Of a stretch of 64,000 nucleotides of DNA, positions 42,721-46,386 are shown in pieces. The stretch covers positions 310,001 through 374,000 of the forward strand of contig NZ_JAHXBG010000008.1 in the NCBI RefSeq assembly GCF_020103725.1. The letters are read 5' to 3'. The position numbers and the translations under genes were made by a program. A model generated the notes under the pieces. It did not search any database. It saw only the letters and a program-made list of their open reading frames with translations, and was not told the DNA's origin. This DNA comes from Hyalangium gracile (GTDB taxonomy: Bacteria > Myxococcota > Myxococcia > Myxococcales > Myxococcaceae). Each line of letters begins with the position of its first letter. The stretch's first letter is position 1.

Positions 42721-43617
42721 ATGCTCCGTCACGTGAGACCGCGCGCACTGCCATGGCTGGCACTCTTCTCGCTGGTCTCCTGCAAGGGATGCTTCGATGA
42801 AGCATCCACGCGCGCCCCGGACGCCGCTCCGAGAGCTGAGCGTCCTCGGCCCGCTGACGGTGGCGGCGATGGGCTCCAGGTCCTCGAGACGAGCGTGTTC
42901 CGTGCGGCGGGCGAGCCGGACTTCAAGAACCGTTATGCGTCGACGGTCATGATCACGACGGGACCGCCAGAGGCGTCGAAGACATGCAGCGGCGTGCTCC
43001 TCGCTCCAAGCCTCGCCCTCACGGCGGCGCACTGTGTCTGCGAACCGCGAGCCGAATGCGTCGCGACGGCCTATGTGACGACAGTGACTTATGATCCCGT
43101 GAAGGCGAGGATCGGCACGGGCGGGCAGACCCGGGTCTACGAGGGAGTCGTGCTGCCTCATCCGGAACTCGAGCTCCTTGTGGACCCCACGGGACAGGTC
43201 GTGGCCGGCAAGGCGAATCTGGCGCTCCTTCAGCTGGACGAGCCGGTTGAGGGCCTCCACTCAGGGTTCGCGCTGACAGACACCCCTGCTCAATCCGGCG
43301 AGCTCCTGGTCATGGCGGGTTATGGGCGAGGGGGAGACGTGGGGAGCTTCTATGGGCTTCGCTACTTCAGGAAGAACAAGGTCGCGCGGGCTTCGACACC
43401 TGGAGGTGAGCGAGTCCTGTACGAGCAGCAGGGCACATCGCTGTACAATGGCTTCGACGGCGGGCCCTGCTTTCGAGAAGAGGGCCCGCAGCGATGGCTC
43501 GTGGGCATCGCGACCTGGGGCTCCGACAAGGAACTGTCGTTCACAGACCTGTCTCCGTACCAGGACTGGTTGCGCGCCGAGCTCAGCAAGGATGCGCGCG
43601 ACTCCGGACGTCCGTGA
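42721..43617 (+). CDS. Trypsin-fold lipoprotein lacking two catalytic residues (pseudoprotease)
   Basis: 298 residues. The lipobox is ALFSLVSCKGCF (Cys21). The fold is that of S1 serine proteases: His104 in LTAAHCVC is kept. The Asp position reads KANLALLQ (Asn166 for Asp), and the Ser position reads NGFDGGPC (Asp246 for Ser in GDSGGP). It should therefore be inactive as a protease and may bind peptides, act as a decoy or regulate the next protein. Except at these positions, the catalytic blocks align closely with the intact paralogue at 43634. The substitutions are clear in the DNA (TTCGACGGC, GCGAATCTG). Confidence 0.8.
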   Translation: MLRHVRPRALPWLALFSLVSCKGCFDEASTRAPDAAPRAERPRPADGGGDGLQVLETSVFRAAGEPDFKNRYASTVMITTGPPEASKTCSGVLLAPSLALTAAHCVCEPRAECVATAYVTTVTYDPVKARIGTGGQTRVYEGVVLPHPELELLVDPTGQVVAGKANLALLQLDEPVEGLHSGFALTDTPAQSGELLVMAGYGRGGDVGSFYGLRYFRKNKVARASTPGGERVLYEQQGTSLYNGFDGGPCFREEGPQRWLVGIATWGSDKELSFTDLSPYQDWLRAELSKDARDSGRP

Positions 43618-43633
43618 AGGAGGAAACGGCTCC

Positions 43634-44560
43634 ATGATGGCGCATCGAGGCGGTACCACGCTCTCTTCCGTGCTGGCGGTGCTGCTCGTGGGGGCAGGGT
43701 GTGCGACGGCTCCCGTCGCGCCTCGGCTGGATGAAGCGCAAGCTCAGGTCTTCGAGCTCCCGGCGGAGGCGGTGTCTCCCCCGGCCCAGGCGGACCAGCT
43801 GTTCGTGTTGGGCGCCACGGGTGTGGATGTATCGAACCGCTACCTGTCGACGGTGGTCGTCACCACGGATGAGGCGTCCGGCATGTGCAGTGGCGTTCTC
43901 ATCAGCCCACGCCTCGTGCTGACCGCGGGGCATTGCGTGTGTGGACGGCGAAGGGTGACGCATGCCGCGGGTGCCAGCGGAACCGAGATCGACGGCTCAC
44001 AATGCGCCAGCAAGGCCTTTGCCACGGTCACGGCCTACGAGCCGACCAAGGCGAAGTCGCAATACTCCATGCTGCCCCGCATCTATCAGGGGAGCGTCCG
44101 ACCCCATGGCGAGCTGAAGATCCACCTCGATGCGCAGGACAACGTCGTGTCGAGTCGAGCCGATCTGGCCCTCATCCTGTTGGAGGAGGCGGTAGCGGGT
44201 GTGGGAGTGGCGCAGCTCGCGGGGAGCGAGGTGCGCCAGGAAGAAGCCCTCGTCATGGTGGGCTACGGCGCTGACAAGACGGACCTGGGGGAGGCCATGC
44301 CGGGATTTCGTCGCTATGGCACCAATGCGGTCACTCAAGTAAGGCCCCCGGAAGAGGGGCTCTTCGTCATGGAGAAGGAGGGGGCGCACTCGTATGCCGG
44401 AGACAGCGGAGGGCCATGCTTCCGCGAAGACAAGAAGGGCCGCTGGCTGGTGGGCATCTCGGCGCGAGGAACGGGCAAGGTGTCGAGATTCACGAGCACC
44501 TACCGTTACAAGGCCTGGCTGGAGCAGGAGATCAAACTCGCCGCGAAGCGCAAGACGTGA
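43634..44560 (+). CDS. Trypsin-like serine protease lipoprotein
   Basis: 308 residues with lipobox LLVGAGCATAP (Cys23). The full triad is present: His100 in LTAGHCVC, Asp177 in SRADLALILL and Ser258 in YAGDSGGPC. Paired cysteines suggest disulfides. It is an envelope or surface protease of the S1 family. The ATG at 43634 has GGAGG about 10 bases upstream, 16 bp after the degenerate paralogue's stop, so both are co-transcribed. Tandem duplication followed by loss of activity in the first copy is likely. Confidence 0.85.
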   Translation: MMAHRGGTTLSSVLAVLLVGAGCATAPVAPRLDEAQAQVFELPAEAVSPPAQADQLFVLGATGVDVSNRYLSTVVVTTDEASGMCSGVLISPRLVLTAGHCVCGRRRVTHAAGASGTEIDGSQCASKAFATVTAYEPTKAKSQYSMLPRIYQGSVRPHGELKIHLDAQDNVVSSRADLALILLEEAVAGVGVAQLAGSEVRQEEALVMVGYGADKTDLGEAMPGFRRYGTNAVTQVRPPEEGLFVMEKEGAHSYAGDSGGPCFREDKKGRWLVGISARGTGKVSRFTSTYRYKAWLEQEIKLAAKRKT

Positions 44561-45173: not shown

Positions 45174-46016
45174 ATGGAACGACGCTCCGACTGGTACTCC
45201 CACCCCAAGTATTACGAGGCCATCTTCGGCACCGACACCCGCAAGGAGATGGACTTCCTCCTCGAGGTGAATCGACACCACGGCACCGGAGGCTCGCTGC
45301 TGCTCGAGCCCGCCTGCGGCGCCGGGAGGCTCGTGGCCGAGGCCGCGCGCCGAGGGCTCGACATCGTCGGCTATGACATCTCCGAGCCGATGCTCGCGCA
45401 CGCCCGCCGCCGCCTCTCGCCCGCGAGGAGGCGCCACGTCCACCTCTTCCAGTCGCGCATGGAGTCGTTCTCCGCGCCCGAGTGGGAGGGCCGCGTGGAC
45501 CTGGCCTTCAACCTCGTCTCCACCTTCCGCTACCTGGACAGCGAGACCGCCGCGAGAGAGCACCTGAAGAGCACCCGGAGGCTGCTCAAGCCCGAGGGCA
45601 TCTATGCGCTGGGCTTCCACCTCACCGACTACGCCCGCACCACCCTGGAGCGCGAGCGCTGGGTGGGGCGCGTGGGCCGGGACACCGTCATCTGCAACAC
45701 CCGCGAGGGGCTCCCGGATCGCCGCCTGCGGCGCTCGGCCATGCGCAACCGGCTGCGAATCACCGGTCCGGGCCGGGACATGCTCATCGAGACGAACTGG
45801 TTCTTCCGCACGTACGACCTGGACGAAGCGCGGCGCCTCTTCCGCTCGGCGGGCCTGCGCATCCTGGCCATGTACGACTTCGACTACCGGTTGGAGAGCC
45901 CGCTCGGGCGCGGCAGCAACCGGCTGGACCGCGTCTTCATCCTCCAGCCGCTTCCGACACCTGCTGGACGGAAGCCGCGAAGCGCAGGCAGGGCCTCGCG
46001 CACCGAATCAAAATAA
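45174..46016 (+). CDS. SAM-dependent class I methyltransferase
   Basis: 280 residues. Motif I LLLEPACGAGRLVAEAARRG (about 42-61) and acidic motif II GYDISEPMLAHAR (about 66-78) bind SAM; post-motifs MESFSAPEWEGRVDLAFNLV follow. The C-terminal part (FRTYDLDEARRLFRSAGLRI) is like small-molecule methyltransferases. Substrate unknown. The gene ends in a basic tail (GRKPRSAGRASRTESK). No neighbour gives a hint. Confidence 0.8.
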   Translation: MERRSDWYSHPKYYEAIFGTDTRKEMDFLLEVNRHHGTGGSLLLEPACGAGRLVAEAARRGLDIVGYDISEPMLAHARRRLSPARRRHVHLFQSRMESFSAPEWEGRVDLAFNLVSTFRYLDSETAAREHLKSTRRLLKPEGIYALGFHLTDYARTTLERERWVGRVGRDTVICNTREGLPDRRLRRSAMRNRLRITGPGRDMLIETNWFFRTYDLDEARRLFRSAGLRILAMYDFDYRLESPLGRGSNRLDRVFILQPLPTPAGRKPRSAGRASRTESK

Positions 46017-46103
46017 GGGTTACTCTATGAGAAGGAGAGTCGTGCGGGACGAGAGCGCCGTGTAGGCGTTTCTGCGTCATGTGCGCAGGAGCCCACCGCC
46101 TCG

Positions 46104-46187
46104 GACCCAGCTGCGTTCGACTTGGACGCAACTGCTTCCAAAATGGACGCAAGTGCGTCCAACCTGGACGCAAGCGCTCTCACCACC
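46104..46187 (+). repeat. 21-bp tandem repeat, four units
   Basis: Four head-to-tail units of 21 bp start at 46104, 46125, 46146 and 46167, each beginning GAC(G/C)CA(A/G) and carrying CTGC or TGCG near the middle; the last is partial. In one plus-strand frame the units encode a heptad TQLRSTW, TQLLPKW, TQVRPTW, TQALSPP. The minus strand also gives heptads (WTHLRPF, WKQLRPS). No full gene surrounds them. The unit is not separated by spacers, so it is not CRISPR. Confidence 0.8.
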
Positions 46188-46199
46188 CTCTTGTAAGGG

Positions 46200-46340
46200 G
46201 TTGATTCTACTCACCAGCGATGACGTCCCAGACTGGCGTACAACCTGCATCAGGTTTGGGCGTGCGCTTCCTCACCGGGCGCATCGCAGTCTGGGGGGGT
46301 AGAAGCGCGGAAGGAGGGGCCGCTCCTTCCGCGCTTTTTC
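46200..46340 (+). ncRNA. Candidate structured small RNA
   Basis: CCCAGACTG (46227-46235) pairs with CAGTCTGGG (46287-46295), nine perfect pairs closing a loop that holds two hairpins. One is AACCTG/CAGGTT (46242-46256, loop CAT). The other is TGCGC/GCGCA (46263-46283), extended inside by CC/GG. This three-way junction is followed seven bases later by a strong terminator (46303-46339). No gene follows on the plus strand, so a stand-alone regulatory RNA is more likely than a leader. The 5' end is not defined. Confidence 0.5.
46303..46339 (+). terminator. Strong Rho-independent terminator
   Basis: AAGCGCGGAAGGAG pairs perfectly with CTCCTTCCGCGCTT (14 bp, loop GGGCCG), followed by TTT and C on the plus strand. 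It ends the candidate RNA at 46200 and is 287 bp past the methyltransferase stop. On the other strand the tract after the stem is weak. Confidence 0.85.
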
Positions 46341-46386
46341 ATGTCCACAGTTCGGTGAGTCTTTTCCCGACATCCACAAGCACCCC

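Follow-up and report, generated by a model that had tools for sequence, protein, structure and literature searches.

Enterobacterial GlmY and GlmZ are sigma-54-dependent small RNAs (sRNAs), and the Qrr sRNAs of Vibrio occur in multiple copies, depend on Hfq and have an enhancer motif other than the one described here. Sigma-54 and VasH jointly control type VI secretion, in Vibrio as well as in other bacteria (PMC10482370). Myxobacteria are reported to lack Hfq (PMC5684412), and among the regulatory sRNAs studied in these bacteria Pxr alone turned up in the literature searched. The papers searched yielded no myxobacterial sRNA that is co-regulated within a sigma-54 type VI secretion regulon. 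Here we describe a previously uncatalogued, predicted small-RNA gene that is conserved in five predatory myxobacterial genera. It was recognised in a 64,000-nucleotide stretch of a Hyalangium gracile contig, hereafter called the window.

Layout and conservation of the locus

The predicted gene lies in an intergenic gap (46017-46386) between a methyltransferase gene on the plus strand and an open reading frame (ORF) on the minus strand (Table 1). The next ORF is thus convergent, in agreement with the preliminary description of this DNA, which had noted a gap with no following gene on the plus strand. Further upstream, two adjacent trypsin-like protease genes, likely paralogs, occupy positions 42721-44560, ahead of a CBS-domain gene and the methyltransferase gene. 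A collinear methyltransferase gene was found upstream of the RNA element in all nine relatives compared in detail, and the alignment with relatives stops short of the convergent ORF. In genera g8, g12 and g9 (loci L084-L090), the methyltransferase gene is kept with no such RNA behind it.

Homologs were found by DNA search in relatives, and 40 distinct homologous loci were analysed. The 22-nucleotide sequence within the terminator hairpin was present in exactly one copy, with zero mismatches, in 53 of the 145 genomes searched. These belong to five genera, and among the carriers with a name are Myxococcus xanthus, several other Myxococcus, Pyxidicoccus, Corallococcus, Citreicoccus and Hyalangium. 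A search that tolerated one mismatch found no copy in the order's remaining 92 genomes. A match in a Zoogloeaceae MAG was discarded; the surrounding features are missing there, and it looks like a chance occurrence. One record titled 'Comamonas sp. KCTC 72670' (BNCN01000001.1, locus L061) bears the Myxococcus form of the locus, and its label looks wrong.

Table 1. Features of the predicted small-RNA locus and its neighbours (positions within the window).
Feature	Position	Strand	Remarks
Class I SAM-dependent methyltransferase gene	45174..46016	+	Upstream neighbour, synteny marker; Pfam Methyltransf_25
Putative enhancer (UAS) palindrome 1, TGGACGCAACTGCTTCCA	46123..46140	+	One mismatch to TGGACGCANNTGCGTCCA; half-sites at -136/-127 from the start
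Putative enhancer (UAS) palindrome 2, TGGACGCAAGTGCGTCCA	46144..46161	+	Perfect palindrome; half-sites at -115/-106
Putative third enhancer half-site, GGACGCA	46166..46172	+	At -94, fitting the 21-bp period
Sigma-54 promoter, TGGCGTACAACCTGCA (-24 GG, -12 GC)	46234..46249	+	Motif in 40/40 distinct homologs
Small RNA, predicted, ~81 nt	46260..46340	+	Start predicted 12 nt past the -12 C
5' hairpin (GUGCGCU/GGCGCAU)	46262..46284	+	Seven relatives retain 5-7 of the 7 pairs
G-rich linker, CGCAGTCTGGGGGGGTAG	46285..46302	+	Expected to be single-stranded; conserved only within the window's genus group
Intrinsic terminator	46303..46339	+	14-bp stem, 6-nt loop GGGCCG, T-run
Invariant 22-mer, GGAAGGAGGGGCCGCTCCTTCC	46309..46330	+	Within the terminator hairpin, loop included
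Convergent ORF, 604 aa	46387..48201	-	Downstream; no Pfam match; outside the RNA gene

Predicted transcripts span 80-87 nt in all 40 loci, and the order of their parts is constant: the 5' hairpin is followed by a variable linker and then by the terminator. The 14-bp terminator stem (46303-46316/46323-46336) is followed by a short T-run, as first described, and all 14 pairs are retained in seven relatives; the homologs in Myxococcus and Corallococcus have terminators without a good T-run. That this hairpin is invariant even in its loop suggests a role beyond termination. The 5' hairpin, which had been noted as the second of two inner hairpins (46262-46268/46278-46284), can be seen clearly among the sequences of the window's genus group and, at the corresponding place, in Corallococcus, with a less regular form in Myxococcus. 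Its exchanges among the seven relatives are C-G/U-G and A-U/G-C. RNAalifold covariation for this hairpin is weak, with one compensated pair each in the Myxococcus and Corallococcus sets, and the hairpin is therefore supported by kept pairing and less by covariation. In this window alone, the 5' part of the predicted RNA folds no better than shuffled sequences (z = -0.63). The 5' half is also too divergent between genera for a shared base-pairing seed to be likely there. The earlier claim of folding beyond chance holds over 46195-46345 (151 nt; z = -3.75 against dinucleotide shuffles), although the effect is largely that of the terminator.

A coding small ORF was considered and rejected, as a closed ORF of at least eight codons occurs in only 5 of the 40 predicted transcripts; all five are GTG-started and none is common across genera. 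A search of the stretch against Rfam 15 gave no family above the gathering threshold, and no tRNA either, which bears out the initial impression that no known RNA class is present. At permissive thresholds, the matches were at chance level and mostly on the terminator, the best being ctRNA_pGA1 with 24.8 of 45 bits.

Promoter, enhancer array and shared module

The motif TGGC[AG]N-N7-GCA, which carries the GG and GC elements of a -24/-12 promoter, precedes the 22-nucleotide sequence at a near-constant distance in all 40 distinct homologous loci. The number expected by chance is far lower (mean of 0.32 and maximum of 3 in dinucleotide shuffles), and six control windows contained none. This sigma-54 promoter places the expected transcription start near 46260. 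Upstream of it, positions 46123-46172 hold a typical enhancer array of putative activator sites. Palindromes of the form GGACGCA-N2-TGCGTCC, or their half-sites, are common to the homologs between about -136 and -84 relative to the start and recur with a period of 21 bp, that is, two helical turns, which keeps the sites in helical register. Sites laid out in this way are what an NtrC-family enhancer-binding protein would be expected to use. Between -180 and -134 from the 22-nucleotide sequence, half-sites number 2.7 per locus against 0.11 in shuffled sequences, with at least one in each of the 40 loci. The second palindrome is the sole exact copy in the 11.7-Mb genome; with two mismatches allowed, the palindrome is still essentially limited to the RNA locus in the window's genome.

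Enhancer and promoter together form a module with matches in 47 of 96 family genomes, in only the five RNA-bearing genera, and with zero control matches. Three module matches are probably due to chance, two of them lying inside a conserved ATPase-like gene of genera g8 and g12 and one, in Corallococcus genome G082, being without the third half-site. In the window's own genome, the strict module was found only before the RNA and a ricin-B lectin gene; this second copy (G000:C20:149102-149217, minus strand; loci L163/L186/L231) lies about 60 nt upstream of the lectin gene, which encodes a probable lipoprotein. In the Myxococcus relatives, the module is common to type VI structural genes: it precedes a PAAR-like DUF4280 gene in 11 genomes, with a leader of 49-52 nt. 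The DUF4280 gene adjoins TssB and TssC in all four Myxococcus genomes checked, and TssK and TssF as well in one. Locus L229 (G094:C1:2861001-2881000) represents this arrangement, a type VI secretion operon whose DUF4280 head gene stands behind the module, and 10 other Myxococcus genomes have this head gene behind the module as well. The module also precedes a beta/gamma-crystallin gene in Corallococcus, a GH38-type gene and an HBL-domain gene in Myxococcus, and furthermore phospholipase-D-type genes and genes for uncharacterised large proteins. Type VI secretion is a toxin-injecting weapon. Since the module stands before weapon and exoprotein genes, the most fitting view of the RNA is as one product among several of a sigma-54 weapon/exoprotein regulon.

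No gene for a GAFTGA-type activator was found in the window, in flanks of about 10-20 kb to both sides of it or around the scanned type VI clusters. A gene for an FHA-domain sigma-54 activator (L233:5205-6506, minus strand) lies about 3 kb from one module target in one genome; it is at most a candidate activator. Pairing of the RNA with the leaders of type VI operons gave no signal over shuffles.

Interpretation of the predicted RNA

From the conservation of the gene, its promoter and enhancer array, and the module that it shares with other genes, we consider it probable that the locus is a sigma-54-dependent sRNA gene, activated by an NtrC-family protein, co-regulated with type VI secretion and exoprotein genes, and likely trans-acting. 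An NtrC-family enhancer-binding protein (bEBP), encoded outside the window, would bind the 21-bp-spaced palindromes and activate sigma-54 polymerase at the promoter. We infer that the polymerase would then yield an RNA of about 81 nt, composed of the 5' hairpin, the linker and the terminator hairpin. Since type VI secretion and exoprotein genes of relatives stand under the control of the same module, this RNA would be made while the weapon/exoprotein regulon is on. It would most likely act in trans and post-transcriptionally, with the invariant terminator hairpin as a putative functional core that serves stability, protein binding or pairing.

The promoter, the conservation and the outcome of the Rfam comparison strongly support the stand-alone small RNA with a strong terminator that the preliminary description had proposed. 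The fold envisaged there, a three-way junction over 46227-46295 followed by the terminator, is very improbable. Its elements are all present in this one sequence, with a perfect 9-bp closing stem (46227-46235/46287-46295) and two inner hairpins, the first at 46242-46247/46251-46256, and the segment 46222-46300 alone gives a z of -2.57 against shuffles and a minimum-energy fold of this very shape. However, a start near 46260 leaves the left arm of the closing stem and hairpin 1 (46242-46256) upstream of the transcript, so that half of the junction is promoter DNA, with the left arm overlapping the conserved sigma-54 motif. In seven relatives, moreover, only 1-2 of the 6 pairs of hairpin 1 are retained, and 5-8 of the 9 pairs of the closing stem, the latter often merely as G-U. 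Hairpin 1 is lost in all relatives of the eight-sequence alignment, the pairing of both helices is no better than in shuffled columns, and compensatory change does not conserve the closing helix together with both inner helices. Pairing that is broken in relatives without compensation had been named beforehand as the outcome that would count against the RNA; the three-way fold fails on this count, the nine-pair stem is not confirmed as a functional RNA helix, and the sRNA gene survives.

Quite unlikely, too, is that there is no separate RNA gene, with the hairpin ending the methyltransferase mRNA as its 3' terminator and the sigma-54-like motif there by coincidence. The hairpin is on the same strand, about 290 bp past the methyltransferase stop codon, and is a strong terminator, but chance would almost never place a promoter motif and an enhancer array at a fixed spacing in all 40 loci, the methyltransferase gene occurs without the RNA element in three genera, and the module is found before other genes as well. 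The sigma-54 promoter might instead be real and the RNA a leader or by-product, whose purpose lies in driving or attenuating a gene further downstream, or in presenting the terminator hairpin to a protein. A same-strand ORF, read by eye from the sequence, does appear to follow in Myxococcus and Citreicoccus, and the T-run is poor there; in the window, by contrast, the next ORF is convergent, the RNA persists while the downstream sequence differs between genera, and the invariant loop and inner stem are not needed for plain termination, which makes such a leader unlikely. That the locus is Pxr, a developmental sRNA known from Myxococcus, or a Pxr paralog has a negligible probability. Pxr is likewise sigma-54-dependent and has a strong terminator stem with a conserved segment (PMC5684412), and tandem Pxr paralogs occur in Cystobacter (PMC5568312). 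Nevertheless, Pxr fragments taken from published primers (PMC5684412) map to another locus of the window's genome (G000:C6:524472, between NtrC-type regulator and GNAT genes), and the RNA described here has no sequence likeness to Pxr, a different context and its conserved part in the terminator. Pxr identity was rejected by position and sequence.

The sigma-54-dependent sRNA gene with a probable role in trans could be a dedicated riboregulator of the type VI and exoprotein arsenal, an extension that we offer tentatively. The activator of the weapon would also make the RNA which, without Hfq and via its invariant terminator hairpin, might feed back on the weapon or reshape predation or development. 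The gene adds a second, widely conserved predicted sRNA gene to the Hfq-less myxobacteria, with promoter and putative enhancer assigned, and ties the RNA to a regulon of which type VI secretion is part in Myxococcus. Since a homolog is present in M. xanthus, the RNA gene can be tested at once, and the module offers a specific DNA motif for tracing the activator of the regulon. A 22-nt terminator hairpin frozen with its loop while the remaining RNA drifts is unusual, and prompts a search for its binder.

Comparison with known systems

Pxr and the predicted RNA have in common a sigma-54 promoter, an intergenic position, hosts from the same suborder without Hfq, and a conserved terminator-hairpin stem (PMC5684412). 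They differ in that Pxr has its own locus beside pxrK/pxrR and is longer, with three stem-loops of which SL1 and SL2 are conserved, and without similarity to the RNA described here. In the window's genome, the pxr locus (L083; G000:C6:522972-525989) has a sigma-54-like promoter, the SL3 terminator and upstream repeats with TGAAATCA-like words. Pairing is conceivable between the linker's G-run and the C-run of the Pxr SL1 loop in the window's genome; this idea of a Pxr sponge was dropped because Myxococcus and Corallococcus have no such G-run.

GlmY and GlmZ are unrelated to the RNA in sequence, host and context, and no Rfam match links it to them. The Qrr sRNAs, under LuxO and sigma-54, resemble it in their NtrC-family activator and in their link to the control of type VI secretion (PMC10482370, PMC11443567), whereas the RNA described here is single copy and no Hfq, the partner of an Hfq-dependent sRNA, was found in its host: PF17209 had no match in the window's genome, and the positive controls were matched. 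A further parallel is VasH with RpoN, a bEBP that together with sigma-54 activates type VI genes (PMC10482370), and this control makes the logic proposed here a familiar one. The present system differs in that no activator was found near the type VI clusters scanned, and in that its module also precedes a predicted sRNA gene.
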